A DNA stretch of 20,894 bases from a bacterium. GTDB lineage: Bacteria; UBP15; UBA6099; DSWB01. Below, in pieces: positions 1-20,894 of the stretch (positions are counted from its first letter, which is position 1; each line of letters starts with the position of its first letter). Made by a program: the position numbers and the translations under genes. The notes below the pieces were generated by a model. That model made no database searches. It was not told where the DNA came from and worked only from the letters and a program-made list of their open reading frames with translations. The DNA is taken from NCBI GenBank assembly GCA_020061125.1, contig JAGUYV010000450.1, positions 1 to 20,894 on the forward strand, given 5' to 3'.

Positions 1-3000
1 CCGGCAACGGCGGCGGCGCCGTGGACACCGTGGTGCCAGCCGCGCTCGACGGTGTGTACTGCACCGCCGCCATGGACCAGTCCGACAACCCCGCACCGTT
101 CACCAACAACGGCCCGGCTGTGGATCTGTTCGCGCCGGGCGTGAGCGTGTATTCGCTTGAACCCGGGGGCGCGTCGGGCATGCGGGACGGCACAAGCATG
201 GCCGCGGCGTTCACCGCGGGCGCAGCCGGGCTGATCGCCGGTTTCGCTCCCACGGTCACCAACAGAGAGCTTGAAGATGTGCTGCGCGAGTTCTCGGACT
301 CGCTGGGCATCGTGCCCGTGCACAACGGCGGCGTTCTGGATGTTGACGCCGCGCTGCGCCAGTTCAGCAGCGGCAACCGGCCGCCCGTGATCGAGTCTTT
401 GCACCTGTCCGAGACCGCCATCGCAGCGGACGGCGCCGTGACCGCCACGGCCGTGGCCCGCGACCCGGACGGGGATTTCCTTGAATACCGGTGGGAAGTC
501 AGCGGCGGCTCGTTGCAGGGTCCGGCGCGGGATGTGAAGACATGGGATGCGTTCCCCGAGCGCGGCCGCTACGCCGTGCGCGTGACCGTCACGGACAGCA
601 AGGGTGGCAGCGCCACGGCGCAGGCGGCGCTTGACGCGGGCCTCGACGGCCTGACCCACATTGCCATCTACCCGCGCACGGCATCCATCTCCGCGGGCGA
701 CATCATTCATTACCGCGCCTTCGGCCATTTCACGGATGGTTCCGTCCGAGCCGTGCGGCCCCTGTGGAGCGTGGACAACGGGCGCGGCGTCATGTCCCCC
801 GAGGGCGTGTTCACAGCGCTCGCCGCGGGACTGGAAACCGTGCGCGTCGAACTCGGTGGGTTCTCGGACAGTTTAACCATAGCCGTGGATTCCGCCCTGC
901 CCATGCCGGCTCTTTCGCCTGCGGCCATGATCAGCCGCAACCCGGCCCCGGCCATGGACACCGGCGCCGCCGATTTCATTGTGATCGGCGATCTGGACGG
1001 CGACGCGGACAATGATTTTATCGCCGTTGCCGGCCTCGTGGGCGCTCCCAACATAGTGCACATGAACAATGGCGGCTATGCGTTCGCTCAATCCAGCTTC
1101 CCGGTCAATTCCCAGACCAACATGGCAGTGCTCGCGGATGTGGATCACGATGCGGATCTGGATCTCATTGAAGCGGGCATTTTAACAACGCCCGGCGTGC
1201 GCTTCTTCGCAAACAACGGCGCCGGAGGTTTCGCCCTATCCATGACACTGGGCGGCGCGGATGTGCGCAGCGTATATGTTGTGGACATGGACCACGACAC
1301 CATGCCGGACATCGTGGCCGGTGTGGCGGGCATCGGCAATTCGCCAACCATATACTGGAACTCCACGACCAGCTTCAATGCAGGCAATTTCACCACGATT
1401 GCGGCCGCAGCCTGCGGACAGAAACACACCCTGGCCGGCGATGTGAACAATGACGGCTGGGCCGACATCGTCAATGTCTGCAGCACGGGCAGCACGGAAG
1501 TCTTCTATAATGTCAAAAACCGCACCTTTTCTTATGCCGGACCCATCGCCGGGTCCAATCTTGGAACCCGGTTCGCGCATCTGGCCGATGTGGACGGCGA
1601 TGGGGATCTGGACTATGTGGCGCTTCGCGCCTACAACGACGCAGGCACGGATTATGAAGAATACGCCATCTTCAAGAACAACGGCAGCGGCGCATTCACA
1701 TACTTCGGGGCATCACCGCGCTGGCAGCAAGGCTCCGGAGCCACGCAATTTGACATGGCCGATCACAACAACGACGGCGACATAGACATTTACGCCGCGC
1801 CCAAGAGCGCCACAGCCGTGGGTCTGGTGTACTCGAACAACGGCAGCGGCACCTTCACGGCGTCCGTGGACACTTTCCCCGCACCTGTGGACACCCTCAC
1901 CGCGGGCGACTTGAGCGGCGACCGCTCTCCCGACGCCATCAACAACCGCGAAACAGGCATCATCTGGGAAAACAACAACAGCACGCCCAACAACGCGCCC
2001 TCCGCGCCCACGGGCCTCAAGCACTACATTTTCGACGACGACGATCTGCAGATGGAATGGGACTGGGCGCAGGCCGGAGACTCCACCACGCGCGATCTGG
2101 TCACATTCGACCTGCGCGCCGAATACAGCGATTTTACATCCACGCAGACCGTGTATTACGGCGTGGCGCCGGAGCGGTTCGGCAACCTCGGCCACGCCAC
2201 GCACAGCGGCGCCGGAACTTATGGCTACAACCACCCCGACACAGGCATCACCACCGGCCGCCTGGCATGGTCCGTGCGCGCCGTTGACACCCAGTTCGGC
2301 CGCGGCCCCTGGAGCGCCACAGCCACCGTGGGCTGCCCCGTGGTCTCGAACCTAGCGGACACGGGCATGGCCACCCTGCGCGATTGCATTGACTACGCCA
2401 ACAACAACCCCGGCGAAACCATCACCTTCGACTCCTCGATTCACGGCGGCACAATTTCCGTGCTCTCGGAACTGCCGGCCCTGTTCTCCGGGGACACGGT
2501 GATAGACGGCCGTTTCGCGGACATCACACTGGACGGCGCCGGGTGTGCGGGCTGCAACGGCCTCACCATTGATTCCACAAGCAATGTAACCATCTGGGGC
2601 ATGACAATTGACAGGTTTTCCGAGAATGGCATTTTCGTCAACGGATCCTTGAGTTCCACCATCGGGGGAGACAGGTCCGCGGGCCAGGGCAATGTCATCA
2701 CCCGGAACGGCCAGGCGGGTATCCAGGTTACGGGAAGCTCGGGCATCTCCATCCAGGGCAACGCCATGGGCACCAATTTCGGCGCGGCCACGGGCACCCA
2801 GAGCCTGGGCAACACCTACGGAATCCGACTGTCGCGCGGCTCCTCGTTTGTTCAAAACATCATCATCGGCGACAGCGCCGCGGGCGCGCCGGTTAACGGC
2901 AACCTCGGAAACATCATTGCATACAACACCACCAACGGCGTGCGCGTGGACGGCGGAACGGCTTTTGGCCAGAACGGCGCCAGCAGAAACAGATTCACGA

Positions 3001-6000
3001 ACAACGCGATCTATGCCAACGGTGGCGCCGCGGACAAAGCCGTCTATCTCGCGGCGGCCGGCGCGCACGGCTCCCCGGCGCCCATCGCGCCCCCGGTGAT
3101 CACCAATGTCGCATGCTCCGCCACACCCGGATATTTCGATGTGACTTTCGAGGTCAGCAATCTAACGGTCGCGAACTCCGACATATATTTTTATCGTGTG
3201 GACAATGATGTGTCCGCGCCGCTCACGGCGCCGGACACAACCGCGGGCGAAGGCTTCGAATACATCGGCTACGCCACCGCGGGCGGCGTAATCGGCGTGA
3301 ACACAAAAACCGCGTCCATCCCGTTCAATGACGCGGACGGCGACTACATCTCCGCCGTGCGCTACCACCTCGGGGCCGGTCCCGCCAACAACCAGGGCTT
3401 CTCGGAATTCGCCAACAATGTGGCCATCCCCTCATGCGGCCCCTGTCCGGGCTATGTGGTCACAAACGGCAACGCCACCGGAGACGGCTCCCTGTACGCA
3501 TGCATCCAGGAGGCCAACAACAACCCGGGGTGGGCCACAATCACATTCAACGCCGCGTACACAATCCAGCCGGTCACAGCCACTCCCTACATCATTCAAA
3601 CAGACAACGCCGGGGTCGGGATTGACGGAGACACGGATGGCGACGGCGATCCGGATGTCATCATTGACGGAACCAACTGCGCCAACTGCCACGGCTTTGT
3701 GATCCGTTCCAGCAACAACACAATAAAAAATCTGTCCATTGTCAATTTCGACGACAACGCCACTTGTCCCACGGACAACTTTTTCTACCGCAACTGCGCG
3801 GGTGTATACATGAAGGACGGAGCATCCTCGAACAAGATCCAGGGCTGCCGCATCGGCACCTCGGACGGAACCGCTTCCGCCAAAAATTATTACGGGATAT
3901 TCATAGACGACGGCTCTTCGAGCAACACCGTGGGCACGGATAACGACGGCGCGGACGACGCAGCCGAGGGCAACCTCATCAGCGGCAACATGTCCTTCGG
4001 CGTGTTCATCACCGGCACAGGCGCATATTCGCAGAACAACGCGGTCATGGGAAACATCATCGGCGCGGACATCAACGGAACATCACCTCTGGCGAACAAC
4101 GCAAACGGCATTTATGTTTATCAGCGCGCCACGAACAACCTCATCGGCGGCCCCGCCGCGGTCCAGCGCAATGTCATCTCCGGAAACAACGGCGCCGGCG
4201 TGGCTATTGACCACGGCAACTGTTCCGGCAACAAGGTGCAGGGCAATTACATCGGCACCGATATCACAGGAACCCTGGCCGTACCTAACTCACGAGGCGT
4301 TTACATCAAAACAGACACCAAGAACAACATAATCGGAACCGACGGAGACGGCTCGAACGACGCAGCGGAACGCAATGTTATCAGCGGAAACAGTTCTTAT
4401 GGCGTGTTCATAGACGGCAATTTCACATCGAACAACCGAATCTCCGGCAATTATATCGGCTTGCAGAAGGGCGGAATCGCTGCGCTCGCCAATGACATAG
4501 GCGTGTTCCTCAACGGTGGAGGCAGCAACTTTATCGGAACGAACAACGACCTGGTGAATGACGACGCCGAAGGAAACATCATTTCGGGCAACACCAGGTA
4601 CGGAATCAGTCTCGATGGAGCGCAGGTCAACAGATATGTGGTCATGAAGAACATCATCGGCCTGGCTGCGGACGGCTCCACGCAACCCAACGGCCGGGAA
4701 GGAGTTCTGATCAGCAGTGGCGCGAACAACAACCTCATCGGAAGCGCCACGGACACGGCTTATGCAAATGTAATCGCGCAAAACGGCACCGATGGAAACC
4801 GGGACGGGGTTTTTATTCAGGGCCTCAATTCAGACAACAACGCAATCCTGCGAAACAGCATATACAACAATGAAGGTCTGGGCATCCGGCTGAATAATGA
4901 CGGAGCGAACCAGAACATGGCCCCGCCGGTCATCACGAATGTGACCAATACCGGCGGCTCGGCTTACAGCATTTCCGGGACATCCTCGTGCGGCGCGGGC
5001 TGCACAATCGAGATTTTCATCGTGGACAACGCCGCCGCTCCCCTCGTGAATCCTGATCCGTCAGGCACGGGCGAAGCCTACAGTTACGCCACGCGCACAC
5101 TCACCACCGCGGGCGGCGCGTGGTCCGTATCAAGCGTGAACATCCCCTCCGGCACGGAAATCACGGCCACGGTCACAGACACAGACACCGCGTCCAATCC
5201 CTTTGGTAACACATCGCCCTTCGCGGACAATGAGCCGCTGCCCGTGAGCGAATGCCCGCTCTGGCAGGTCACCACCAACGCGGACTCCGGAGTGGGCACG
5301 CTGCGCAAGTGCATCGAGGAAGCCAACGCTTCGGGCAGCGGGCAGACCATCACATTCACGATTTCCAATCAGACGATCACGCCTCTGACAGAACTGCCTG
5401 CCATTACACAGGACAGCGTGAGCATTGACGGAGCGGCGCAGAACATCACTGTCAGCGGCGCATCGTGCGCGGCCTGCGACGGGTTTACCTTTGCCTCGAA
5501 TTCCGGCGGCGTGAACGCGCTCACAATCACCGGTTTCACCGGCGTCGGCAACTCCGGCATTCTCATTGACGGTGCGTCCGGAACCGTTGTCACCGGATGC
5601 AAGATCGGAAACAACGGAGTCGCGGCCGCGCCCAATTATCACGGAATCACCATCACAAACGGCGCCTCCAGTTCCACCATCGGCGGCAGCACGCCCGCTC
5701 AAAGAAACATCATCTCCGGAAACTCGCAGGCAGGGGTCATCGTCTACAGCAACTCCAATAAAATCTATGGCAATTTCGTGGGCCTGAACGCCGCTGGAAC
5801 CGCGGCCCTTGCCAATGGCATGGGCATCGAATTGTACGGCAATTCCAATCTGGCCGGAGGCGACGCCGCCGGCACAGGAAATGTGATCGCGGGCAATACG
5901 ACCAGCGGTCTGGGTTTGCGATTTTCCGCGCAGAGCAATGTGGTGCGCAACAACATCATCGGAATGAACCAGGCCGGAACCGCATTTTCCAACGGGACAG

Positions 6001-9000
6001 GTATTCTCATTGCATCAGGCGCCACAAGGAATATGATCGGCGGCCTGGTTTCGGCTCCTAACCTGATCGCTAAAAATACAGGCGCCGGCGTCAGGCTCTC
6101 GGGCGCAACCACCATCAGAAACACCATTTCCATCAACACGATTTACGACAACGGCTCGCTGGGCATTGACCTCGACGGCGCCGGGTCCAACAGCAACATC
6201 GCCGCGCCAGCATTTTCGTGTTCCGTGGACAACGGCGGCGGCTCCTACTGGGTCGTGGGCACATCTTCCTGCAACAACTGCACCGTGGAGCTGTTCCAGG
6301 TGGACAGCGCCACAGTCACCGCGGATTTAACCGGTGCGGGCGAAGCGTTCACCTATCTTGCTTCAGCCACCACGAGCGCCACCGGCTCTTTTGGCGTTTC
6401 CATCACATTTCCTGCGGCCGCGGGCGGAACTCTGGTCACCGGCACGGTCACCGACGCCCTCGGCAACACTTCCGAATTTGCGGCCAATTACGATTTCTCA
6501 ACTGTCTGCGACCAGTGCCCGAACTGGGAAGTCACCAGCACCGCGGACAGCGGCATTGGCACTCTGCGCGCGTGCATTGACAAAGCCAACACTACCGGCG
6601 GTCCCGACACCATCATCGTGATGACGGGCGGTGCCGTGACCCTGGCATCGTCTCTGCCAACACTTACAGACGATGAGACAACTATTGACGGAAACGGGCA
6701 GTCCCTGGTCATAGACGGCGCGGGAACAGTGGATACAGGGCTGATCATACAAAGCGCGGACAACACGGTCCAGGAGCTTGCCTTTGTGGGGTTCGCCAGC
6801 GCCGCGGTCTGGATATCAGGTTCCGGCGCGCAGGGCAACACATTCGCTGCGAACCGCGTGGGCATCAACTTCAGCGGAACCGCAGACGCCAATGCCGTGG
6901 GCATGGTCATCTCCGGCGGCGCTCACGACAATGTCATCGGAGGCGACCGCTCCACTTCCCAGGGCAATGTGATCAGCGGCAACTCCGGCCACGGCATCGT
7001 TTTGACTGACAGCGGCACGGACGCAAACATCATCCGCGGCAACAACATCGGCGTGAACGCCGCAGGCGACGCCAAACTCGCAAACGGCGGCTCGGGCGTG
7101 TATGCGCACAACGGGCCTTCCGGCACAATCATCGGCACGGACGCCGCCAATCTCTACAATGTGATCGGCGGCAACGCCAGCCACGGAATCCACCTCTCGA
7201 ACAGCACTTCGGCCATCATCAAGGGCAACTACATCGGTGCGCGCTATGGCTTCCCCACGGACCTGGGCAACGGCGTCCACGGCGTGTTCCTCGAAAACGC
7301 GGACAACGCCACTCTGGGCGGAACCGTGACCGCCGAGGAGCGCAACTACATTTGCCACAACGCCAGCGACGGTCTGCGCATTGATTCATCGGACAGCGCA
7401 TCTCTCTATGCCAATTACATCGGCTCCAACGAAACCCTCACGGATCTCGGAAACAGCGGCAACGGCGTCAACATTATCAACGGCTCGACCCAGACCAAGA
7501 TCGGCGATTTGGTGAGGCAGAACTACATTGTCTACAATACGCTTGCGGGCATCAGCGTGAACGGTGCGGCTGCAACCGGCAACGGTTTCATCAGAAACAG
7601 GATTTTCGAGAACGGCGGCAAAGGCGTTTCGCTGCTGAACGGAGCAAACGCATCCATAACGAGGCCGACCATAACGGTTGTGGATGCAAAGGGCGGCGGC
7701 CTGTACGACCTGACCGTTTCCGTGCCCCAGCCTCCGGTGAACTGCTCGGCCGGAACGCCCTGCCGGCTTGAGATTTTCGCAGTGGACAACAGCGGCGTGC
7801 CGTCCGTGGCTTCGGATCCCTCCGGCGCGGGCGAGGCGTTCAACTTCGCCACCGCGCAGTTCATCACCACATCCTGCGCTCCGTCCTGCTCCGTTGTTTT
7901 CACAGATGTGAATTTCGGCGGCGCTTTCCCGGGCAGCACCAAGGTCACCGCGTCCGTCACAGGCGGCGGGGGCAACACCAGCGAGTTCTCTAACAATTTT
8001 GATCTGCCCACCACAAGTACCTGCCCCGTGGTCTCGGTGAACACAGACGCGCGTCCGGCCGCGCCATCGGGCAGCCTGCGCGATTGCATCAAGCGCGCCA
8101 ACACCGGCGCCGCCGGCAAAAATATCACATTTGACGCCAGCCTGGCCGGACAGACGATTCAACTCGTAGGCCCGCTCGACATCGGCGTGGATTCCAGCGC
8201 CATCTATACAAGCGGCATTTCCGTGACCAACGCCACGGGCGGCGAAATTACCATCAGGGGCATGGGCACAGCGCAGAACTGTCTCCACATCATGGCGCGC
8301 ACCTCCGCCACGGCCCATATCGAAAACATCACCGTAGACGGCCTCACATTTATCAACTGCAACGAGGCCATCCGGGTTTACAATGAATTCAGCGCCAACC
8401 CGTTCGACATCCAGAATGTGACTATCAGAAACAATCACATAGGCGTCACCCGCTCCGGAACATCGGGCGCGGGCTACATCAACAGCTATGGAATCACGGT
8501 TCTACACGGCAAGAATGTAACCATCGAGAACAACACCATTGCGGGCAGCCTGGCCCACGGCATTCTGGCGAGATTCATCAAGACCACGGGCCTGGTCGTG
8601 CGCGGCAATTACATCGGCACCAACGCGGCTGGCGCATCAGGCCTCGGGAACACGCAATACGGCATCTTCATCGGCGAGCATGTCAGCAACACAACCATCG
8701 GCGGAACCACGCCCGCGCAGCGCAATGTGATTTCCTCGAACGGCACATCGGGCATATATCTTGAAAATGCAAACACGGCCGTAATCACCGGCAACTACAT
8801 AGGAACCAACCCCGCCGGAACCGCGGCCCTGCCCAACGGCAAGGGCGTCACTTTATTTGAATCCATCAACAACCGCATCGGAGGCTCAAGGGCTGCGGGC
8901 GAGGGCAATGTCATCTCCGGAAACACCGCCGAAGGCATCCGTTTCAATTACAAATCCGGAGGTTGCATCGTCAACGGCAACTCCATTGGCGTGGACGCCG

Positions 9001-12000: not shown

Positions 12001-13541
12001 CAACCATCACCATCCGCGTGAACAGCCCGCCCGCGATAACCAATATGGAATTCGTGCCCCCGCAGACATTCGCCGACGGCGTGACCTCCACCCAGTTGCG
12101 CATTGACATCTACGACGCCGACGGCAGGCAGGATATTTCAACGGTCACGGTTGACCTGGCGTCCCTGGGCATAGTCCCGGCGGTGCAGAGCCTCGCATAC
12201 AGCGGCCCCGCGGGCGTGAATACCTTCCGGTATGTTCTCAATGTCACGCCGCTCGCGGGTTACGCAACCGGCGTTTACCTCGCCACCGGCACGGTCACGG
12301 ACATTTTCACGCGCACGGACACGGATTCTGCGCCGCTTGAACTCGTCACCACCATGCCAAACCCGCCCGTCATGGTGACCGTCACATCCTCCAGCAGCAC
12401 CGTGGCCGTCAAGTGGAGATCCCCGTTCCTCAACACTGACGGAACGGCCCTCACCAACCTGGCCGGACACAACATCTGGCGCCGCACAGCCACCGGAACC
12501 TATGATCCGGTTCCGTATTATGTGGACGCCACCACCGCAACCAACACCATAGTCGTCTACACCGACGCCGCGGTGACCGACTTCGAGACTTATTGCTATA
12601 AGGCAACGGCATACAACTCATACGGCATAGAAAGCGCGGCGTCCGCGGAAAAGTGTGTGATGGTGTATCCTCCCGCCTGGGTCTACCACCAGACCTGCGG
12701 GGATGTCGTCACGGGAGGATTCCCGGCCCCCAGCACGCCGGGATTCTTCAACCGGCCCATGGATGTGGCCGTGGACGACCAGGGCAACATTTTCGTGGCC
12801 GACACGGACAATCATCGCATCCAGAAATTCGACAAGTTCTGCGAATTCAAGGGCTGGCGCGGCGGGTTCGGCAACACGCCCGGAAAGTTCAAAAGCCCGA
12901 GCAGCATCACTTGGAATCCGGCCGACGGCCTGCTCTATGTAACGGACAGATACGACCGCGTTCAGGTGTTCGACACTTCCGACACACTCGATGTGCAGCC
13001 CGGCGGGTTCAAATATTACGAGCCGATCACCATCCAGTCCGGGCCGGGCGGCACATTCTTCCTCACCCAGACCGGCTCACCCAATGTGGTGCAGGTTGAC
13101 GGCACGGGCGCAGCTGTCGCCACCTTCACATTCACGCTTCCCCGCGCCGTGGACACGGACTCGTCCGGCAACATTTTTGTGACCGACATATCGGAACACA
13201 AGGTGTACAAGCTGGATTCCGGCGGCGGCGTAATCACAAGCTGGGGCGGTGCGGGCAGCGCGCCCGGATCGTTCAACGAGCCGGGCGGCCTGGCCGTGGA
13301 CAGCGGGGGCGGCTTCGTGTTCGTGGCCGACACCAAAAACAACCGCATCCAGATATTCGACCTCGACGGCGCGCTCGTGAACATAGCCGGATACGGCGTG
13401 GGCATGGACTATGGCCAGTTGCGCTATCCCGCGGGCCTGGCCGTGTCGCCAAACGGGCAGCTCGCGCCCCTGTTCACCTCGCTCATCGTCGCCGACAGGT
13501 ACAACAACCGCATCCAGGAATTCGGCCCTCCCGGCTCGTAA
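1..13541 (+). CDS. Giant secreted subtilase / beta-helix / NHL multidomain protein (5' partial)
   Basis: The frame is open from base 3, so the true start lies upstream; the GTG at 21 is internal. It ends with TAA at 13539-13541 and shows 4512 residues. The first part is the C-terminal end of a peptidase S8 (subtilisin) domain: an FAPG strand motif near base 130, then GTSMA with the presumed nucleophile Ser codon at 195-197. The Asp and His of the triad must lie upstream. Next come a PKD-like domain (about 378-640), a Big-2-like domain (645-890), seven FG-GAP/VCBS-like repeats (990-1960), an FN3-like domain (about 1990-2330), six beta-helix modules (2334-10676), five Ig-like repeats (10677-12350), FN3 (12351-12675) and an NHL propeller (12700-13538). 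No C-terminal anchor or sorting helix is visible. Subtilase plus adhesive repeats suggests a secreted or surface protein, perhaps self-processing; that role is inference. Whether this is one continuous protein rests on the unbroken frame. Confidence 0.9.
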   Translation, partial: GNGGGAVDTVVPAALDGVYCTAAMDQSDNPAPFTNNGPAVDLFAPGVSVYSLEPGGASGMRDGTSMAAAFTAGAAGLIAGFAPTVTNRELEDVLREFSDSLGIVPVHNGGVLDVDAALRQFSSGNRPPVIESLHLSETAIAADGAVTATAVARDPDGDFLEYRWEVSGGSLQGPARDVKTWDAFPERGRYAVRVTVTDSKGGSATAQAALDAGLDGLTHIAIYPRTASISAGDIIHYRAFGHFTDGSVRAVRPLWSVDNGRGVMSPEGVFTALAAGLETVRVELGGFSDSLTIAVDSALPMPALSPAAMISRNPAPAMDTGAADFIVIGDLDGDADNDFIAVAGLVGAPNIVHMNNGGYAFAQSSFPVNSQTNMAVLADVDHDADLDLIEAGILTTPGVRFFANNGAGGFALSMTLGGADVRSVYVVDMDHDTMPDIVAGVAGIGNSPTIYWNSTTSFNAGNFTTIAAAACGQKHTLAGDVNNDGWADIVNVCSTGSTEVFYNVKNRTFSYAGPIAGSNLGTRFAHLADVDGDGDLDYVALRAYNDAGTDYEEYAIFKNNGSGAFTYFGASPRWQQGSGATQFDMADHNNDGDIDIYAAPKSATAVGLVYSNNGSGTFTASVDTFPAPVDTLTAGDLSGDRSPDAINNRETGIIWENNNSTPNNAPSAPTGLKHYIFDDDDLQMEWDWAQAGDSTTRDLVTFDLRAEYSDFTSTQTVYYGVAPERFGNLGHATHSGAGTYGYNHPDTGITTGRLAWSVRAVDTQFGRGPWSATATVGCPVVSNLADTGMATLRDCIDYANNNPGETITFDSSIHGGTISVLSELPALFSGDTVIDGRFADITLDGAGCAGCNGLTIDSTSNVTIWGMTIDRFSENGIFVNGSLSSTIGGDRSAGQGNVITRNGQAGIQVTGSSGISIQGNAMGTNFGAATGTQSLGNTYGIRLSRGSSFVQNIIIGDSAAGAPVNGNLGNIIAYNTTNGVRVDGGTAFGQNGASRNRFTNNAIYANGGAADKAVYLAAAGAHGSPAPIAPPVITNVACSATPGYFDVTFEVSNLTVANSDIYFYRVDNDVSAPLTAPDTTAGEGFEYIGYATAGGVIGVNTKTASIPFNDADGDYISAVRYHLGAGPANNQGFSEFANNVAIPSCGPCPGYVVTNGNATGDGSLYACIQEANNNPGWATITFNAAYTIQPVTATPYIIQTDNAGVGIDGDTDGDGDPDVIIDGTNCANCHGFVIRSSNNTIKNLSIVNFDDNATCPTDNFFYRNCAGVYMKDGASSNKIQGCRIGTSDGTASAKNYYGIFIDDGSSSNTVGTDNDGADDAAEGNLISGNMSFGVFITGTGAYSQNNAVMGNIIGADINGTSPLANNANGIYVYQRATNNLIGGPAAVQRNVISGNNGAGVAIDHGNCSGNKVQGNYIGTDITGTLAVPNSRGVYIKTDTKNNIIGTDGDGSNDAAERNVISGNSSYGVFIDGNFTSNNRISGNYIGLQKGGIAALANDIGVFLNGGGSNFIGTNNDLVNDDAEGNIISGNTRYGISLDGAQVNRYVVMKNIIGLAADGSTQPNGREGVLISSGANNNLIGSATDTAYANVIAQNGTDGNRDGVFIQGLNSDNNAILRNSIYNNEGLGIRLNNDGANQNMAPPVITNVTNTGGSAYSISGTSSCGAGCTIEIFIVDNAAAPLVNPDPSGTGEAYSYATRTLTTAGGAWSVSSVNIPSGTEITATVTDTDTASNPFGNTSPFADNEPLPVSECPLWQVTTNADSGVGTLRKCIEEANASGSGQTITFTISNQTITPLTELPAITQDSVSIDGAAQNITVSGASCAACDGFTFASNSGGVNALTITGFTGVGNSGILIDGASGTVVTGCKIGNNGVAAAPNYHGITITNGASSSTIGGSTPAQRNIISGNSQAGVIVYSNSNKIYGNFVGLNAAGTAALANGMGIELYGNSNLAGGDAAGTGNVIAGNTTSGLGLRFSAQSNVVRNNIIGMNQAGTAFSNGTGILIASGATRNMIGGLVSAPNLIAKNTGAGVRLSGATTIRNTISINTIYDNGSLGIDLDGAGSNSNIAAPAFSCSVDNGGGSYWVVGTSSCNNCTVELFQVDSATVTADLTGAGEAFTYLASATTSATGSFGVSITFPAAAGGTLVTGTVTDALGNTSEFAANYDFSTVCDQCPNWEVTSTADSGIGTLRACIDKANTTGGPDTIIVMTGGAVTLASSLPTLTDDETTIDGNGQSLVIDGAGTVDTGLIIQSADNTVQELAFVGFASAAVWISGSGAQGNTFAANRVGINFSGTADANAVGMVISGGAHDNVIGGDRSTSQGNVISGNSGHGIVLTDSGTDANIIRGNNIGVNAAGDAKLANGGSGVYAHNGPSGTIIGTDAANLYNVIGGNASHGIHLSNSTSAIIKGNYIGARYGFPTDLGNGVHGVFLENADNATLGGTVTAEERNYICHNASDGLRIDSSDSASLYANYIGSNETLTDLGNSGNGVNIINGSTQTKIGDLVRQNYIVYNTLAGISVNGAAATGNGFIRNRIFENGGKGVSLLNGANASITRPTITVVDAKGGGLYDLTVSVPQPPVNCSAGTPCRLEIFAVDNSGVPSVASDPSGAGEAFNFATAQFITTSCAPSCSVVFTDVNFGGAFPGSTKVTASVTGGGGNTSEFSNNFDLPTTSTCPVVSVNTDARPAAPSGSLRDCIKRANTGAAGKNITFDASLAGQTIQLVGPLDIGVDSSAIYTSGISVTNATGGEITIRGMGTAQNCLHIMARTSATAHIENITVDGLTFINCNEAIRVYNEFSANPFDIQNVTIRNNHIGVTRSGTSGAGYINSYGITVLHGKNVTIENNTIAGSLAHGILARFIKTTGLVVRGNYIGTNAAGASGLGNTQYGIFIGEHVSNTTIGGTTPAQRNVISSNGTSGIYLENANTAVITGNYIGTNPAGTAALPNGKGVTLFESINNRIGGSRAAGEGNVISGNTAEGIRFNYKSGGCIVNGNSIGVDAAGNPLGNGSHGVHLAGYEDNRNHFGEQTADTANIIANNGGGGIIITPDYAGPTTNMHRNLFSQNRIYNNAGMGLYVPLDTNMDIRPPVFDIITPTAAGVVDISGTTSPACTSCRVELFRVNHTGSPAVASDTSGAGEAWEYLTHATTTAAGAWSLSGFAFATATGEWMTATLTDSEYNTSEFATNAMPNYCPVVYSNLDDGPNTLRECISQANSRGGAFKTITFHTSLANSNIFLDSSLPAFATDGITVTNNSGGQITVNGQTGNFNCFTINSANNAIRGLSIVSCSGAGNPSAIRISGAAAQNNTIAGNKIGTNNASAAGLGNGAGVSIESGATGNTIGGAAPADANVIASSTSDGIVIDAASTNNVFGNYIGTNSALAAGLGNGGHGVRLQNGATNNTIGGVNPGQAINTILNNGSAGISSDGAASTGNDFSRNKVYGNGWLGIALTGGAHNALAQPVISSIAKTGAATFNIIGDGADNSCNNCTVELFRVDDTVAGVTPDGSGAGEAFVFLDDETASATGAFAFYGVTVSGGSWLTVTVTDPVSGTSEFSINKEAVNDPPFVWSGTPAFSPVSIIPNGAATATLSLEADDPNGLDDITTAPAIVVIDMSPVNGASGSITMTSGAAGANGGLMFDAGSLTAYSAAGIATGSYILTATVTDRWGATGTATVALVIDNAPPIVDNSAASPSTVIPGTPNVAFSADVFDFNGLSDIQSVTIDLSPITGPVALAMVDDGTSGDTAAGDGTYTIGGYTIPLAAPFGNHTIVVTATDKSGATATDSFILQMGGVPTVVSVSFNPAAVPPDGSTITNISVVVDDPDGQADIARVYIILDPIKTAPLTLDLVYSGPVAGGFLYTGTATVDPGFLPATYTLTAWASDSMALADDGTGDLGVSNLPPDILSATATPYDVATGVPGFNELAFTAVVTDPNGLADIYAVTIDLSPIGGPSAFVLYDDATNGDTTAADGSYAFTPFTVPAAAPAGTHTLTVSATDGDATDTATITIRVNSPPAITNMEFVPPQTFADGVTSTQLRIDIYDADGRQDISTVTVDLASLGIVPAVQSLAYSGPAGVNTFRYVLNVTPLAGYATGVYLATGTVTDIFTRTDTDSAPLELVTTMPNPPVMVTVTSSSSTVAVKWRSPFLNTDGTALTNLAGHNIWRRTATGTYDPVPYYVDATTATNTIVVYTDAAVTDFETYCYKATAYNSYGIESAASAEKCVMVYPPAWVYHQTCGDVVTGGFPAPSTPGFFNRPMDVAVDDQGNIFVADTDNHRIQKFDKFCEFKGWRGGFGNTPGKFKSPSSITWNPADGLLYVTDRYDRVQVFDTSDTLDVQPGGFKYYEPITIQSGPGGTFFLTQTGSPNVVQVDGTGAAVATFTFTLPRAVDTDSSGNIFVTDISEHKVYKLDSGGGVITSWGGAGSAPGSFNEPGGLAVDSGGGFVFVADTKNNRIQIFDLDGALVNIAGYGVGMDYGQLRYPAGLAVSPNGQLAPLFTSLIVADRYNNRIQEFGPPGS
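990..1960 (+). repeat. Seven FG-GAP/VCBS-like Asp-rich repeats inside the giant protein
   Basis: Seven D-x-D/N/S-x-D-type loops begin at bases 990, 1137, 1284, 1440, 1587, 1761 and 1908. Examples are DLDGDADND, DVDHDADLD and DVNNDGWAD. The spacing is 147, 147, 156, 147, 174 and 147 nt, so the unit is about 49 residues. Such loops bind calcium in integrin-like FG-GAP propellers, and seven units would match a seven-bladed propeller. The fold is inferred from family knowledge; the loops and their period are seen directly. The last loop (DLSGDRSPD) is the most degenerate. Confidence 0.75.
2334..10676 (+). repeat. Six right-handed beta-helix modules inside the giant protein
   Basis: Six modules begin at about 2334, 3435, 5253, 6507, 8022 and 9570, with lengths of roughly 1.1 to 1.8 kb. 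Each opens with a Cys-Pro segment and a short strand, then a G-T/S-L-x-x-C-I-x-x-A-N motif followed by a T-I-T-F-like strand. The body repeats N-V-I-S-G-N and G-N-Y-I-G-T type rungs, as expected for parallel beta-helix (PbH1-type) coils. Most modules close with an Ig-like segment containing V-E-L-F-type and G-A-G-E-A-F-type motifs and ending near T-S-E-F. The modules differ in rung number and codons, so the duplications look old. Family comparison suggests a carbohydrate-binding, carbohydrate-cleaving or adhesive stalk; no catalytic site is identified. Confidence 0.8.
10677..12350 (+). repeat. Five tandem Ig-like repeats in the giant protein
   Basis: Five repeats start at about 10677, 11031, 11364, 11685 and 12021. 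Most open with an N-x-P-P linker and contain a D-P/F/A-N/D-G-x-x-D-I motif; three have T-I/V-D-L-S-P or a close variant. Repeats two and four are the closest pair: both carry a D-D-x-T-x-G-D-T stretch followed by G-x-Y. The pattern resembles bacterial cadherin/Ig-like stalk domains, with Asp residues that may bind calcium. They probably act as a spacer between the beta-helix body and the C-terminal propeller; this role is inferred from position. Confidence 0.65.
12700..13538 (+). repeat. C-terminal NHL-type beta-propeller of the giant protein
   Basis: NHL signatures are clear: F-N-R-P-M-D-V-A-V-D near 12750, then I-F-V-A-D-T-D-N-H-R-I-Q-K-F, then S-I-T and L-Y-V-T-D-R-Y-D-R-V-Q-V-F. A degenerate blade follows, then I-F-V-T-D-I-S-E-H-K-V-Y-K-L, F-V-A-D-T-K-N-N-R-I-Q-I-F, and a final V-A-D-R-Y-N-N-R-I-Q-E-F just before the stop. 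About six blades can be counted. NHL propellers bind proteins or ligands; which partner is involved cannot be told here. The last blade reaches almost to the stop, so no separate C-terminal sorting domain remains. Confidence 0.85.
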
Positions 13542-13570
13542 TCTTTTTCCCGCAACTCCCGCCTGTCCAT

Positions 13571-13590
13571 GCGCGGACCCGGTTCCGCGT
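13571..13590 (+). promoter_or_regulatory. Inverted repeat just upstream of the C25 operon -10 box
   Basis: CGCGGA (13572-13577) and TCCGCG (13584-13589) form a perfect 6-bp inverted repeat around a 6-nt loop, extendable by a G-T pair. It sits where a -35 element would lie for the -10 box at 13596. It could be an operator, or a weak hairpin ending the upstream giant transcript. No T-tract follows, so an intrinsic terminator is unlikely. Confidence 0.3.
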
Positions 13591-13592
13591 TG

Positions 13593-13601
13593 TGCTATAA
13601 T
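13593..13601 (+). promoter_or_regulatory. Extended -10 promoter for the C25 peptidase operon
   Basis: The string TGTGCTATAAT at 13591-13601 fits the extended -10 consensus TRTGnTATAAT with every defined base matched. No good -35 is present at the usual distance (13573-13578 reads GCGGAC), which is typical of extended -10 promoters. The predicted start of transcription is near 13608, about 25 nt before the ATG of the peptidase gene. Confidence 0.65.
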
Positions 13602-13632
13602 AATCCGGTATCGCATGCAAAGGGGGCCGGAA

Positions 13633-15303
13633 ATGGCGGCAATTATCCGTAGGGCAACAAATATTGGAATTCAAACGGGTGCGTTCGCAATGGCCGTGAT
13701 TTTGGTTTTTGCATTGGCCGAAACCGCGCGGGCGGCGCAATCCCATGCCGTGGCCAACCCGCTTTCATCGCAGAACGGCGCGGACTATCTAGTGATCGCG
13801 CCCCCGGCGTTCGAGGCCGCTCTGGCGCCGCTCCTGGACAAGCGCGCCGCGGACGGCCTGCGCACGGCGCTCGTCACAACCGTTTCCATACACGACGCTT
13901 TTCCCTACAGCGCCACGGGCGCGCACGCCATCCGCGATTTCGTGCGCTACGCATATTTCCAGTGGCAGGCGCTGCGGCCCAGATACCTGCTGCTGATCGG
14001 CGACACCGTTGCGACAGCTCCCTACGCGCCGGGCGATCCGTCCTTGCCAACCTTCCTTGTGAACACTTCCATTGCGGAAAGCCCCACCGCGTCGGACAAT
14101 CACTACGCGGACATGGACAGCGACGGGCTGCCGGATCTGGCCGTGGGCCGCCTGCCCGCGGATTCTCCGCAAGAGCTTTCCACGATGATTCAAAAGATAT
14201 TGGTGTACGAGACCGCCGCGCCCTCCGGGCCGTGGCGCCGCCGCGTGAACATGTTCGCCAGCGAAGGTCATTTCGGCGCCGTGGACGACATGCTCGAAGA
14301 CATGTTCAAGAAACTCGTGCGCAACAATGTGTCTCCCAATTTCGACCTCACCATGACATACGCCAATCCCGCCATGCCGTATTTTTTCATCCCGGACCGC
14401 TTCGGCGAGAAAGTCATCGAGCGGTTCAATGAAGGATCCCTGTTCATGGTCTACATCGGCCACGGGCACCACAGCCGCTTCGACACCGTGCGATGGAACG
14501 GCAACAAGTACCCCATTATGGACAGTGGCAAGGTCCCAGGCATAGATTCCCAGGGGCGCAGCCCCATCGTGTTCATCATCGCCTGCCTCACCGGGGATTT
14601 CGACATGCCGGAGGACTCCATCGGCGAGGAATTGCTGAAAAGCAAAACAGGCCCCGTGGGCGTGTTCGCATCCAGCGAAATATCGCATCCCTACAGCAAC
14701 TCCATACTGGCCAAGGATATCGCGTTCTTTTTCCTGCACGAGAAGCCGGAGACCGTGGGCGAGGGCCTGGTGCGGGTGAAGAGGGCGCTCATCAAGCGCT
14801 TCGACGAGGACCGGCGCTCCATTGATCGCCTTACGGGCCTCATGCTTCCCAAAAAGGAGCTTGATGCGCAGAACCGGGACCATCTGTACCTGTACAATTA
14901 CTTCGGCGATCCCGCCATGCGCATCGCCTATCCCGGAGGAGCGCTGGCCGTGCAGGCCCCGGAAAAGGCAAGGCCGGGAACGCGCATTTCCGTGACCGTG
15001 CCCCAGGCCCCGCAGGGTTCTCTGCGCGTCACCCTGGAGTGCCCGGCCACGGAAATCATCCACACCATAGCGGATATCGAAAATCTCGAAGGCGCGCATC
15101 TTGAAAAGGCTATCGCGGCCAATTACGCTAATGCGAACGACAAAATCGCGGCCGTCGCCGATCAGCATCAAACGGGCGCCGGGGACGCGACAGCCGCGCT
15201 GGACATACCGGAGAATCTGCCGCCCGGGCAATACTTCATCAAAGCGTACGCCTGGGGCGCGCACACGGACAGCATGGGCTTCGCCCCCATCGCCATAGAA
15301 TGA
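13633..15303 (+). CDS. Secreted peptidase C25 (gingipain-type) family protein
   Basis: The protein has 556 residues from ATG 13633, preceded by a purine-rich AAAGGGGG site; the longer upstream frame has no such site and overlaps the giant gene. Residues 1-34 look like a signal peptide with a hydrophobic core and an A-R-A cleavage site. Mature features match the C25 clan: a D-Y-L-V-I-A start, R-Y-L-L-L-I-G-D, an N-H-Y-A-D-x-D-x-D-G segment followed by P-D-L-A-V-G-R-L-P, then Y-I-G-H-G (His277) and I-I-A-C-L-T-G-D-F (Cys318), the expected catalytic dyad. The last 100 residues or so look like a beta-sandwich, ending in a P-P-G-Q-Y-F-I-K strand. No Por-type C-terminal sorting domain is recognised. 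It likely cleaves proteins outside the cytoplasm. It is the first gene of an operon with the next two genes. Confidence 0.85.
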   Translation: MAAIIRRATNIGIQTGAFAMAVILVFALAETARAAQSHAVANPLSSQNGADYLVIAPPAFEAALAPLLDKRAADGLRTALVTTVSIHDAFPYSATGAHAIRDFVRYAYFQWQALRPRYLLLIGDTVATAPYAPGDPSLPTFLVNTSIAESPTASDNHYADMDSDGLPDLAVGRLPADSPQELSTMIQKILVYETAAPSGPWRRRVNMFASEGHFGAVDDMLEDMFKKLVRNNVSPNFDLTMTYANPAMPYFFIPDRFGEKVIERFNEGSLFMVYIGHGHHSRFDTVRWNGNKYPIMDSGKVPGIDSQGRSPIVFIIACLTGDFDMPEDSIGEELLKSKTGPVGVFASSEISHPYSNSILAKDIAFFFLHEKPETVGEGLVRVKRALIKRFDEDRRSIDRLTGLMLPKKELDAQNRDHLYLYNYFGDPAMRIAYPGGALAVQAPEKARPGTRISVTVPQAPQGSLRVTLECPATEIIHTIADIENLEGAHLEKAIAANYANANDKIAAVADQHQTGAGDATAALDIPENLPPGQYFIKAYAWGAHTDSMGFAPIAIE

Positions 15304-15571: not shown

Positions 15572-16411
15572 ATGACACAGCGCAAGGCGTCCACGCTCTG
15601 CGATTTTCATATCCACACCCGCAACACCGACGATGCGCAGGACACGCTCGAAGCCATGGCCGAAGCCGCGGCCGCGCGCGGCATTCTCGAAATCGCAGTC
15701 ACGGACCACTTCGTGCCCGGCCTCCAGGGTTACTGCGTCACGCCGCACCAGATCGAGCGGCATTTCACGGATGCGGAGCGCATCATGCGCCGGCACGGCG
15801 TAAGCGTGCGCGTGGGCATTGAGGCGGACTATCTGCCCGGCGCGGTGCGCGAACTCGAAGCCATGATCCGCAGATTCGATTTCGACATGATCCTGGGCGC
15901 GGCGCATTTCGTGGACTGGTGCGGCCTGGCCGACGAGGGGTCCGCGCGCACATATTTTTCGCGCCATGAGCCGCGCGCCGCATACCGCATGTATTTCGAG
16001 CATCTCGAAGAGAGCATCCGCAGCGGCCTGTTTCATGTGATGGCGCATCTGGACCTGGTGAAAAAATTCGGCGCAGCCATGGCCGGAAATCCGGGTTTCG
16101 AGGAATACGCGGAATGCGCCGAATCCGTGGCGCGCGCGCTTGCGGAAACGGGCACGGCGTTCGAGCTGAACTGCCGCGGATTCGATCACGCCTGCGCCGA
16201 GCAGTATCCATCCGCGCCATTCCTGGCCGTAATCAAGCAGGCGGGCGTGGAAACAGTCACCATCGGCTCGGACGCGCACCGCGCGGATGCCGTGGGAGAT
16301 CACCTGGAGCGCGGCGCCGCAGCCCTGGCCGCGGCGGGGTTCACGCGCATCGCACGCTTCAGGCAGGGCAAGCCCTGTTTTTCTGACTTGCGCGCCGATC
16401 AATCCTATTGA
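15572..16411 (+). CDS. PHP-domain phosphoesterase, histidinol-phosphatase (HisK-type) like
   Basis: The protein has 279 residues from ATG 15572; the upstream site is weak (AAACGGA, about ten bases before). It shows the four PHP metal-binding motifs: D-F-H13-I-H15-T at the N-terminus, T-D45-H46, G-x-E84-A-D, then H-F-V-D, H-L-D-L and E-L-N-C-R-G, and finally G-S-D234-A-H236. Length and motif order match HisK-type histidinol-phosphatases of the PHP superfamily, which remove phosphate from L-histidinol phosphate in histidine synthesis. No other his gene lies nearby, so another small phosphorylated substrate is possible. It is the last gene of the C25 operon, and the tatA -35 box overlaps its stop codon. 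It is cytoplasmic: no signal or membrane helix is seen. Confidence 0.75.
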   Translation: MTQRKASTLCDFHIHTRNTDDAQDTLEAMAEAAAARGILEIAVTDHFVPGLQGYCVTPHQIERHFTDAERIMRRHGVSVRVGIEADYLPGAVRELEAMIRRFDFDMILGAAHFVDWCGLADEGSARTYFSRHEPRAAYRMYFEHLEESIRSGLFHVMAHLDLVKKFGAAMAGNPGFEEYAECAESVARALAETGTAFELNCRGFDHACAEQYPSAPFLAVIKQAGVETVTIGSDAHRADAVGDHLERGAAALAAAGFTRIARFRQGKPCFSDLRADQSY

Positions 16412-16677: not shown

Positions 16678-16703
16678 CTCCGCATTTTTTTTGCAAACAA
16701 ATA

Positions 16704-16735: not shown

Positions 16736-16762
16736 GTTTGTTCGAATTGCTGCGCTGTGCGA

Positions 16763-17863
16763 TCAGAAGCGGACGGAGAGCTGGATGTCCAGTTCGTCCT
16801 GGTCCACGCGGCCGCTGTTGAACTCGCGCATAATCTGCAGGCGCGCGTCCTTTTCGAAGTTCCAGTTCAGGCCTGCGGTGAAAATCTTCTGCTCGTCGGT
16901 GGCTGCGCCCGTGTTGGGATCGTACTTGTCGTAGCGGGCCACGAGCTGCACATCGGTCTCGGGGATGGCGTACGAGCCGTTCACATACCACTCGCGCGTT
17001 TTCTGGCTAAGCAGGCGGGTCTTCACGCCGGTGGCGGGCACCGTCTCGTCCAGTTTGGACTTCACGGCCACATACTCGCCGAACAGGTGGAAACCGTTGT
17101 TCTTGTAGTCCATGCCCGCGCCGAAAGCGTCCGCGTCGAACTCGGCCATTCTGCCCGCGGTGTTGGCGCCCAGGCCGGCGAACTGCACGCCCGTGTCGTC
17201 GGACATGTTGGCGAACTGGGTGAACACCTTGAAGCTCAAGTTCTCCATGGGTTTGAAGTTGAGCATGCCGCCGTAGTTGTAGCGATCATCGAAGTCGTCC
17301 TGCGCGCCGATGACACCGCCGGTGCCGTTCAGCACCCATGTCGTGAAATCGGTGTTGGCGTTGGGGATGGGGATGACGAACCCGACGCCGCGGTCGCGGT
17401 TGGCGATGCCCACGAACTGGCTGTACTGCACGGTCTCGAGATCGTACACATCGGTGTTCAGCTCATAGCTGACCGGTGTGGGCATCTGGCCGGCGAGGAT
17501 GGTGACCCAGTCCAGATAGGTCAGCACCACATACATGTCGGCGATGCGGTTTTCCGCGCCCAGGTCCCGAAGCACGGCGTTGGTGGGGGTGTTGTCGCCG
17601 AATGAAGAACCGGCGCCGCCGTTCTCGGCCAGTTCGAGATTGGCCACGAACTTGATGTTGTCCGCGGGCTGCGCGCCCAGCTTGATGCGCAGGCGGTTCA
17701 GGTCAAAATTGTCTGCGGTGCCCGGGCGTTCATCGAAGTGCATGCCGAGCTGGCCCACCACATCCATCTGGATGTCTTTTTCCGACAGGCTGGCTGCCGT
17801 GGCGGCGGTGGCGCTGCCGGCGATCATGGCGCCCATAAGCATTGCGGTTAGTGTTTTTCTCAT
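16763..17863 (-). CDS. Outer-membrane porin (OprO/OprP-like beta-barrel)
   Basis: The protein has 366 residues. The ATG at 17863 (minus strand) has an excellent GAGGAGG site six bases upstream; a TTG eight codons further upstream runs through that site and is rejected. A signal peptide with A-T-A-A-like cleavage sites spans about residues 1-24. The mature protein has alternating strands rich in Gly, Asn, Asp and aromatics, an early F-D-L-N-R-L-R-I-K-L segment typical of phosphate-selective-porin relatives, and ends in S-V-R-F with the C-terminal Phe that BamA recognises. It should form a 16- to 18-strand pore in the outer membrane for small solutes; specificity cannot be read from sequence. 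Its 3' end shares the bidirectional terminator with tatA. A separate promoter in the 415-nt gap behind it is likely but was not clearly found. Confidence 0.82.
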   Translation of the reverse strand: MRKTLTAMLMGAMIAGSATAATAASLSEKDIQMDVVGQLGMHFDERPGTADNFDLNRLRIKLGAQPADNIKFVANLELAENGGAGSSFGDNTPTNAVLRDLGAENRIADMYVVLTYLDWVTILAGQMPTPVSYELNTDVYDLETVQYSQFVGIANRDRGVGFVIPIPNANTDFTTWVLNGTGGVIGAQDDFDDRYNYGGMLNFKPMENLSFKVFTQFANMSDDTGVQFAGLGANTAGRMAEFDADAFGAGMDYKNNGFHLFGEYVAVKSKLDETVPATGVKTRLLSQKTREWYVNGSYAIPETDVQLVARYDKYDPNTGAATDEQKIFTAGLNWNFEKDARLQIMREFNSGRVDQDELDIQLSVRF

Positions 17864-18278
17864 TGTGATCCTCCTCGGAGTTTTCAAATATCAGCGGGGA
17901 GCATCTGCCGGGCCGGTGCGCCAAGTGTCCAAGGTTTCCTTGACTCTGGCCTCGATGCGGTGTTCCCTCGCATTTATTTGAATCGTATCTCTTCCGCCGA
18001 GCCGCTCCTTGGTTCGCACCTCCTTCCCAGGCTAGCGGAAAAGTGTCGCAGTGATTCCACTGCGTTGCGCTGATATCAACATCCGGGGCCTTTTGTGGAT
18101 TTTTGTCAGATCGTTTTTCCAATAAATTTGCTCTCCATGGATCGTTTATTGCATTGAAAATCAAAAGGATGCTTTTTTTCAGCAAAAACATGGGCATATC
18201 AAATGAAAACGGTAAAAAACAAATAAATTCGAAATATATGACTGAAAATAAATGTATTGAGGCGTTAAATGGAAACGG
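17864..18278. other. Intergenic region between the porin gene and tatC
   Basis: These 415 nt should hold the porin leader and promoter (minus strand). The half nearest tatC (about 18100-18270) is AT-rich. Visible elements are a 7-bp inverted repeat CAATAAA (18120-18126) / TTTATTG (18145-18151) with CCATGG between its arms, and a perfect 7-bp hairpin CGCAGTG / CACTGCG (18047-18064) with a 4-nt loop. On the minus strand the hairpin is followed by a short TTTT run, so it could be a weak terminator for tatC. No convincing -35/-10 pair for the porin could be chosen by eye. Confidence 0.4.
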
Positions 18279-19016
18279 CTATTCCCCGCTGTCCGGTTCC
18301 GGGGGTTTTGTAAACCGTATGACGATTAAACTGGCTTCGAACAGAGCATACAGCGGCACGGCCAGCACCATCATGGAAAAAACATCCGCAGGCGTGAGCA
18401 CCGCGCCCACGATAAGCGCGGCCACAAACGCGAACTTCCTGTTGCCGGCAAGCATCGCATAGTCCACCACGCCGATCCGCGCGAGGAAGAAAAGGACAAT
18501 CGGCAACTGGAACACCGCGCCGAACGCCAGGATGAATCCGCCCACGAACGATACGAACCGGTTGATGTCATAGGTGAACACCACATAACCTGCGCCGAAC
18601 TGCTCCAGAAAGCGCAGGGACAGGGGAATGGTGAACAGGGCGAACGCCCCGCCCATCAGGAAAAGGACCACGCCCGTAATCACCGCGGGCCACACATACC
18701 GCCGCTCGTGCGGATACAGGCCCGGCGCCACGAACAGCCATATCTGCAGCAGGATCACCGGCGACGCCACGGCCACTCCCATGACCATGGCCAGCTTGAT
18801 CAGAACCATGAACGGCGTCTGCGGCGCCAGGGCCAAAAGTTTGACTTCCGACATGGAGGTGATGAACACCAGCGCTTGGCGGCTCACGAAAAAGCACGCA
18901 ACCGTGCCCACGGTCACGGCCACGATCATGATGATCAGCCGCGTGCGCAGCTCATCGAGATGATCGAGAAAGGTCATCTCCTTCATGTCCGGTTTTTTTC
19001 GGCGTGCCTGGGCCAC
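18279..19016 (-). CDS. tatC: Sec-independent protein translocase subunit TatC
   Basis: The protein has 245 residues, the usual TatC length. The start is GTG at 19016 with a GGGGAG site five bases upstream; the later ATG codons lack one. TatC landmarks are in order: F-L-D-H-L-D-E-L-R-T-R-L near the N-terminus (the signal-binding region), G-L-Y-P-H-E-R-R-Y in the first cytoplasmic loop, F-G-A-V-F-Q-L-P in helix four, and L-T-P-A-D-V-F-S near the end. Six membrane helices fit. TatC binds twin-arginine signal peptides in the inner membrane and recruits TatA. The residue matching the conserved helix-four Glu (E. coli Glu170) is Gln here, a variant that I believe occurs in other TatC proteins. The gene stands alone, split from tatA by the porin gene. 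Confidence 0.95.
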   Translation of the reverse strand: MAQARRKKPDMKEMTFLDHLDELRTRLIIMIVAVTVGTVACFFVSRQALVFITSMSEVKLLALAPQTPFMVLIKLAMVMGVAVASPVILLQIWLFVAPGLYPHERRYVWPAVITGVVLFLMGGAFALFTIPLSLRFLEQFGAGYVVFTYDINRFVSFVGGFILAFGAVFQLPIVLFFLARIGVVDYAMLAGNRKFAFVAALIVGAVLTPADVFSMMVLAVPLYALFEASLIVIRFTKPPEPDSGE

Positions 19017-19051
19017 AAGCGCTCCCCTCTGTGCTCCGTGCGCATTGTCAC

Positions 19052-19057: not shown

Positions 19058-19059
19058 AT

Positions 19060-19694: not shown

Positions 19695-19761
19695 CTGGAT
19701 CAATGTAGGAAAAAGTGGGAATTTGCAGTAACAAATGGTTTGAAATTCGATCGAAGTGGGA
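19694..19761 (+). promoter_or_regulatory. Candidate MraZ operator: phased TGGG-like boxes
   Basis: TGGAT (19696), TAGGA (19706) and TGGGA (19716) recur exactly every 10 nt, the layout known for MraZ boxes (TGGGN repeats with 5-nt gaps). Two further boxes lie on or near the same phase, TGGTT at 19736 and TGGGA at 19757. They begin at the -10 box and cover the first transcribed bases, so MraZ bound here could repress its own operon, as established for MraZ in other bacteria. Confidence 0.6.
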
Positions 19762-19846
19762 AACAAAGGCGTAGCGGCCAATCAGAGGAAGTCTCGAACA
19801 AAACTCTTAAAGGAAATTGATCGTAGTTTGCCAGGGAGTCGGCGCA

Positions 19847-20320
19847 TTGGGCGAAGCGTTTTTCACAGGGTTCCACTATCACAAGGTTGACGCCAAGGGC
19901 AAGGTTATGCTGCCCAAGGAGTATCGCGACGGCCTTGGAGACAAAGTGGCTGTGCAGATGGATTCGGCCATCTACCCCGGCGCCGGAGGCAAGTTCGTGT
20001 TTTTGAAAGTCATGCCCGTGGCGCAGTGGAAGAAGATGTCGGACAAGAGGGGCAAGCTCACGCGCAATCAGAAGCGGTTGTTGCTGGGTGTAGACATAAC
20101 GGAAGTTGACAAGGTAGGCCGGATCCAGTTGCCGCACTCCATGCGCAAGATGGCCAACACCGAAGAGGGCATGGAGATCTGTGTGGCGGGAAACGACGAT
20201 GTCGTGGAAATCTGGAACAGGGACCGGTACGAGGAAGCCATGATCGCGGGGCTGTACGATGAGATGACGCAGTCCGGCATGGAACAGCAGCAAGAGCGCG
20301 GAACCGGAGAGGACTCGTGA
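19847..20320 (+). CDS. mraZ: Transcriptional regulator MraZ
   Basis: The protein has 157 residues if started at TTG 19847, which has AGGGAG (19833-19838) eight bases upstream and puts the F-x-G-x-Y-x-H-x-V-D motif at residue 6, close to its normal place at the very N-terminus. A longer frame from TTG 19817 has a purine run only two bases before it. MraZ is a double SpoVT/AbrB-fold protein that binds TGGG repeats and represses the dcw cluster. The two D-x-x-x-R signatures are D15-A-K-G-K19 (Lys replaces Arg) and D88-K-V-G-R92. Both halves are present, and the C-terminus carries a short acidic/Gln tail. The gene overlaps rsmH by four bases (GTGA), so the two are translationally coupled. Control by its own boxes at 19694-19761 is likely. 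Confidence 0.9.
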   Translation: MGEAFFTGFHYHKVDAKGKVMLPKEYRDGLGDKVAVQMDSAIYPGAGGKFVFLKVMPVAQWKKMSDKRGKLTRNQKRLLLGVDITEVDKVGRIQLPHSMRKMANTEEGMEICVAGNDDVVEIWNRDRYEEAMIAGLYDEMTQSGMEQQQERGTGEDS

Positions 20321-20894
20321 GCTATGGCAGCACGCGCCATGTGCCGGTTCTGCTCGATGAGATATTGCAGGGATTGCAGATAAGGGCGGACGCGCATTAC
20401 TGCGACGCCACACTGGGAGGTGGGGGCTACACTTTACAACTTATGAAGCGCCTGACCTGCGGCAGGGTGATAGCCTTTGACCGCGACCCCGGCGCCATCG
20501 CCCACGCGAGAGCTTTGCTGGGCGATGACCCGCGCTGCGAACTGGTCCATGCAAATTTCGATCAGCTCGAGCCGCGGTGGGAGCAGGGCGGCTGGCCCGC
20601 GCCCATGGGGATTGCGTACGACCTGGGATTGAGCAGCATCCAGCTCGAGGATCCCGCCCGCGGGTTCAGTTTTCTGGCAACGGACGCGCCCCTGGACATG
20701 CGGTTCGATCCGGAACAGGACGGCCCTAGCGCCGCCGACATTGTGAACGGCTGGAGCGAAGAGGAGCTTGCGGACCTGTTCTTCGAACATGGGGAGCGCG
20801 CTGGACGGCGCATCGCGCGGCGCATCGCGTCCGAGAGGGACAGGGCGCCCATCGCCACTGCGGGCCAGCTTGCGGACATCGCGGCCGCGGTTGC
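20317..20894 (+). CDS. rsmH: 16S rRNA (cytosine1402-N4)-methyltransferase RsmH (3' partial)
   Basis: It starts with GTG 20317, overlapping the mraZ stop in GTGA, and stays open to the window end, showing 192 residues. Diagnostic motifs are H-V-P-V-L-L-D-E at residues 8-15, D-A-T-L-G-G-G-G-Y at 30-38 (SAM-binding motif I, with Tyr where many have His), F-D-R-D-P, Y-D-L-G-L-S-S-I-Q-L, and R-G-F-S-F followed by P-L-D-M-R-F. RsmH adds the N4 methyl to C1402 of 16S rRNA in the ribosomal P site. mraZ-rsmH is the usual head of the dcw cluster, and ftsL, ftsI and mur genes would be expected beyond the window. Confidence 0.95.
   Translation, partial: MSYGSTRHVPVLLDEILQGLQIRADAHYCDATLGGGGYTLQLMKRLTCGRVIAFDRDPGAIAHARALLGDDPRCELVHANFDQLEPRWEQGGWPAPMGIAYDLGLSSIQLEDPARGFSFLATDAPLDMRFDPEQDGPSAADIVNGWSEEELADLFFEHGERAGRRIARRIASERDRAPIATAGQLADIAAAV

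Follow-up and report, generated by a model that had tools for sequence, protein, structure and literature searches.

ACGT in the Window and the Genome

What removes one self-complementary tetramer from an entire stretch of bacterial DNA? The question was raised by the first-pass annotation, which reported no ACGT in the window analyzed here, the whole of contig C480 (20,894 bases) of assembly GCA_020061125.1 (G000; 4.12 Mb in 513 contigs, 79% complete). A machine count gave 0 ACGT against 63.8 expected from a second-order Markov model built on the window's own trimers (Poisson P about 1e-28), in agreement with the "several tens" that had been anticipated. The earlier hand count of about 400 ACG was slightly low, since 465 ACG (and 317 CGT) are present, but none of them is followed by T, as had been stated. 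ACGT had the lowest observed/expected ratio (o/e) among all 256 tetramers of the window, and the remaining 15 four-base palindromes were each found in it, which confirmed that other palindromes are present.

The features of the window are collected in Table 1. The longest ORF contained no ACGT, compared with a mean of 53 and a minimum of 40 in 1000 synonymous codon shuffles. The use of T-ending codons for Asn, Asp, Tyr and His before GTN, already noted in the annotation, was absolute in this ORF (50 T-ending, 0 C-ending), while C-ending codons were preferred in other contexts by 627:183. Judged from its translation only, this ORF may encode a giant protein of the VCBS/right-handed-helix type.

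Table 1. Features of the window, with positions counted from its first base.
Feature	Position	Strand	Remark
ACGT-free stretch	1..20894	both	0 vs 63.8 expected
4506-aa ORF, codon choice skirting ACGT	21..13541	+	0 ACGT; Asn/Asp/Tyr/His always T-ending ahead of Val
Possible C25-type peptidase	13411..15303	+	translation reading only
Possible PHP-like phosphoesterase	15572..16411	+	translation reading only
Possible porin-like protein	16763..17887	-	translation reading only
Possible TatC-like protein	18279..19016	-	translation reading only
Possible MraZ-like protein	19817..20320	+	translation reading only

The same state extends across the genome. In a 480-kb sample of the G000 assembly, from which the rRNA genes and phage-like contigs were excluded, 12 ACGT were counted against about 1105 expected (o/e 0.011), a depletion of approximately 90-fold in which some 99% of the sites are gone. 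ACGT was again the tetramer with the lowest ratio of the 256, and non-coding DNA was cleared to the same degree (3 observed, 90 expected).

The genomes searched included just six others from this order (G001–G006), and their ACGT ratios were normal (0.76–1.02). The loss therefore belongs to the G000 lineage, and the shared loss across relatives that would have spoken against the annotation's reading is absent. The control sample of unrelated genomes used for the frequency of strong ACGT loss was small.

Selection on DNA and Cytosine Deamination

Two explanations had been offered for the missing tetramer: selection exerted by a restriction-modification system cutting ACGT, and mutational decay, in which C-methylated ACGT is deaminated into ATGT or ACAT with no selection involved. 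With the amino acids held fixed, ACGT was found to be cleared from every reading frame of the 480-kb sample, with 7 sites against 768 expected in frame xAC-GTx, 1 against 278 in frame ACG-Txx and 1 against 110 in frame xxA-CGT. In the last of these frames Arg becomes Cys or His whichever strand undergoes the C-to-T change. Protein function should therefore restrain deamination there, and yet the loss is equally complete.

Codon choice for Arg after A and for Thr before T was analyzed in a 327-kb set of G000. CGT was used in 0 of 795 Arg codons following xxA; Arg itself was retained and written as CGC, CGG, CGA, AGA or AGG in otherwise normal coding. Thr before T was written as ACC (0.50), ACA (0.35) or ACT (0.15), and the annotation was right that ACG is avoided in this position. 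Compared with the third-base shares in Ala, Pro and Ser before T (A 0.18–0.19, C 0.29–0.37, G 0.33–0.37, T 0.13–0.15), the lost ACG portion was split between ACC and ACA and did not pass to ACA alone.

Decay would predict an excess of ATGT and ACAT, and a modest one was observed (ratio 1.12), together with a small effect at the protein level, as Asn/Asp/Tyr/His-Val pairs were scarcer in G000 (0.81) than in its relatives (0.95) and the corresponding -Ile pairs were commoner. However, the ATGT/ACAT surplus amounted to 215 in the 480-kb sample against 1104 missing ACGT, about one fifth, so the excess looked for by the annotation is there but leaves most of the loss unaccounted for. Since Thr before T shifts chiefly to ACC and frame xxA-CGT is purged although both products alter Arg, deamination of methylated C is not supported as the main cause, and decay without selection is very unlikely. 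The ACGT loss fits selection at the DNA level, not cytosine deamination alone.

Retention of Sites in the rRNA Genes

The rRNA genes are exempt from this loss. Six ACGT were found in the 16S gene of G000 and none in the remaining 12.4 kb of its contig, and four more were found in the 23S gene, giving a total of 10 at an ordinary density. The 16S gene of E. coli carries five ACGT, three of them at positions matching those of G000. The other sites depleted in this genome (see below) were also retained in the rRNA genes, with 8 CTSAG, 5 GRGCYC, 3 RTCGAY, 3 CAGCTG and 2 AAGCTT (about 21). All site types together, ACGT included, numbered 31; in an equal length taken from elsewhere in the genome, fewer than one would be expected.

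Because the rRNA genes keep ACGT and the other sites, these sites are not lethal. A lone endonuclease, acting with no protective methylation, would force a total absence of ACGT, and the tetramer is indeed almost wholly missing outside the rRNA genes; given the 10 copies in the 16S and 23S genes and the 12 more in the 480-kb sample, such an enzyme is scarcely conceivable as the cause, unless these copies are shielded by some other means. The sites retained in the rRNA genes would argue instead for methylation during any period of enzyme activity.

Other Depleted Sites in G000 and Its Order

In G000, ACGT belongs to a group of about six type II-like sites that have been nearly purged, with at least five others: CTSAG, GRGCYC, RTCGAY, CAGCTG and AAGCTT. 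In the 480-kb sample, CTCAG/CTGAG had an o/e of 0.02 (CTCAG, 3.5 against 195), GRGCYC of 0.06 (29 against 521), CAGCTG of 0.08 (9 against 114), AAGCTT of 0.10 (9 against 92) and RTCGAY of 0.10 (21 against 201). CTAG was also low (0.15), and a similar shortage was seen for GGGNCCC (24 against 163). CTCAG was at first considered as an isolated pentamer; when an independence null was used, CTAAG/CTTAG fell short as well (18.5 against 191). On the Markov null CTAAG/CTTAG was not low, and the order relatives were low there too; because of this dependence on the null and the low values in the relatives, CTSAG is taken as firm and CTNAG as only possible. Among these sites are the specificities of BseMII, BanII, PvuII and HindIII, and RTCGAY is, to our knowledge, not the target of a standard enzyme.

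The relatives have purged sites of their own. In G001 these were CTAG (0/39), CATATG (0/13) and RGATCY (2/24), and CCWGG was depleted in G002 to G006 (0/96, 7/95, 1/54, 0/23 and 0/65, respectively). CTAG was missing from G005 (0/17), and CAGCTG was low in all of the order relatives G001–G006. No purging pattern was seen at sites with a fair expectation in the controls from outside the order (G057, G040, G314, G315, G199 and two Synergistaceae). Some purging was found in another order, that of G323, G191 and G046, with GTAC at 1/49 and RTCGAY at 1/24 in G046. It could be supposed that the order of G000 strips its genomes of many restriction targets, with a set proper to each species and little but the rRNA genes being spared, and that purging is a standing strategy by which strong or leaky enzymes can be kept with little methylation, and not a by-product; this idea is unlikely.

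A cause unrelated to restriction was also weighed, such as DNA structure, a binding protein, the target of a mobile element or a codon-pair preference. Causes of this kind do exist, as illustrated by CTAG, whose scarcity in most bacteria is of unclear origin (PMC4687349), and nothing more specific speaks for one here. Codon pairs do not explain the loss, as non-coding DNA is equally cleared. Moreover, the order relatives are normal for ACGT, and the purged set resembles type II recognition sequences, includes degenerate palindromes (GRGCYC, RTCGAY) and varies between relatives, which makes a non-restriction cause quite unlikely.

Probable Restriction-Site Avoidance

Very likely, ACGT is missing because selection has long acted against it as the target of an orthodox type II restriction-modification system, present or past. 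Of the two explanations first proposed, restriction-driven selection is thus the one that is well supported: all reading frames and the non-coding DNA are cleared, the loss is private to the lineage, and ACGT is one among several purged type II-like sites. Known type II enzymes specific for ACGT are MaeII, TaiI and HpyCH4IV, whose recognition sequence is the site lost from G000; the likeness lies in the site.

An orthodox type II system recognizing ACGT, with a separate endonuclease and methyltransferase, would have been long resident in the lineage. Each ACGT would carry a small risk of being cut whenever methylation lags, and mutations destroying the site would be slowly favored. Those ACGT needed by RNA structure would be retained, surviving either through methylation or through a later loss of the system. 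With a simple mutation-selection balance and enough time, each site would need a scaled cost of no more than about ln 90 = 4.5 for the ratio to fall to 0.011.

Avoidance of this kind is already known. In a published survey, the sites of orthodox type II systems were avoided in 48% of the genomes encoding the system, in 3.9% of controls and in 0.7% of genomes with no system at all, and lost systems left traces of avoidance (PMC4687349). The case of G000 resembles the avoidance described there (Rusinov et al., 2015) and in the earlier study of Gelfand and Koonin (1997), as cited in that paper, in that a short palindrome falls below its Markov expectation, differs between related lineages and may outlast its system. 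Set against the survey's avoidance threshold of 0.78 (PMC4687349), the depletion in G000 (0.011) is far stronger; in addition, several sites stand at or below about 0.1 in one genome and the rRNA genes are visibly exempt.

Methyltransferases and the C128 Gene Set

The G000 assembly (79% complete) was searched for methyltransferases, and no gene with demonstrated ACGT specificity was found; Eco57I/TaqI-type methylases were likewise not found in it. A Dam-family methylase on contig C38 was rejected as the cause since no endonuclease was seen adjoining it, as was a beta-class methylase on C172, of which orthologs with 57–59% identity occur in five relatives with normal ACGT. A partial methyltransferase match of unclear function was located on C411. 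With so few methyltransferases set against about six purged sites, a number of the systems must have disappeared, have escaped assembly or belong to other families.

Additionally, one methylase was found on each of two phage-like contigs. C259, with an amidase and a late transcription activator, is near-normal for ACGT (8 against 11.3 expected) and its own methylase has a TSPPY motif; this contig may not belong to the bin, or it may protect itself. C78 (IMGVR_UViG_2880805847_000001), which carries tail genes and a Dam-like methylase, shares the depletion of its host (2 against 13.1 expected), and it was the sole match when phage relatives were sought among viral contigs.

Just one methylase of the assembly was found beside an endonuclease. 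It lies on contig C128, where a C5 methylase (M; PF00145, E 6e-42), a DUF4928 protein (R; PADLOC REase_II, E 2e-42) and a Vsr protein (E 3e-32) are encoded together. A comparison of DUF4928 with solved structures by sequence gave no match, and the predicted structure of a homolog had a mean pLDDT of 49, too low to be usable. DUF4928 was carried by 7 of 337 genomes, G000 included. The set is missing from the six ACGT-normal relatives, where neither a close methylase homolog nor DUF4928 was found. Its closest homolog (M 62%, R 64% and Vsr 64% identical, with 54% identity in the target-recognition region of M) is present in G323, a genome from another order or a deeper lineage, in which ACGT is also the lowest tetramer (8/76 in 110 kb, 0.11). 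One ACGT was counted inside the set of G000 and two inside that of G323 (their own codons would give 3.3 and 3.4), compared with 9 to 13 in the sets of ACGT-normal genomes.

From these data it could be argued that the C128 set is itself the ACGT system behind the loss, and that its relative acted likewise in G323. This early attribution, made because G323 is poor in ACGT, was weakened by the other purged sites and by G191, a congener of G323 that is ACGT-poor as well (2/47) but has neither DUF4928 nor a C5 methylase in an assembly that is 93% complete. Loss of RTCGAY is also common to G000 (0.10) and G323 (0.11), so the set could recognize RTCGAY instead; this site showed no clear loss in G191 (9/15), and it is lost in G046, which has no DUF4928. 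Homologs with R proteins of 54–57% identity occur in ACGT-normal genomes and plasmids, ACGT being normal in G057, G040, G314, G315, the two Synergistaceae and the plasmids of the DUF4928 comparison; G199, with R at 45% identity, had an ACGT ratio of 0.48. Furthermore, the AT content of the C128 set exceeds that of the genome, a hint that the set arrived later. The attribution is thus possible but doubtful, and the set may recognize ACGT, RTCGAY or neither.

Small plasmids, some of them with resistance genes, were also observed to carry methylase-DUF4928 sets, most with Vsr; their hosts include Pseudomonas aeruginosa, Serratia, Burkholderia and Aeromonas. The plasmid sets of Pseudomonas, Serratia, Burkholderia, Aeromonas and Azospirillum share the families and gene order of C128, with R 54–57% identical and Vsr unannotated on some plasmids. 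They differ from it in that the methylase is just 37–38% identical and the host plasmids do not avoid ACGT (0.86–1.14).

Implications

G000 probably represents an extreme form of a known process, in which restriction enzymes erode their target sites in a genome exposed to them for long. It is unusual in how strong the depletion is, how many sites are affected within a single genome and how cleanly the rRNA genes are spared. If the C128 set is specific for ACGT, a recognition sequence would become known for the DUF4928 endonuclease family, which also occurs on clinical plasmids. With the rRNA genes as a control, recoding that can be followed frame by frame and relatives with different purged sets, this genome offers a clean system for measuring how strongly restriction shapes genomes.
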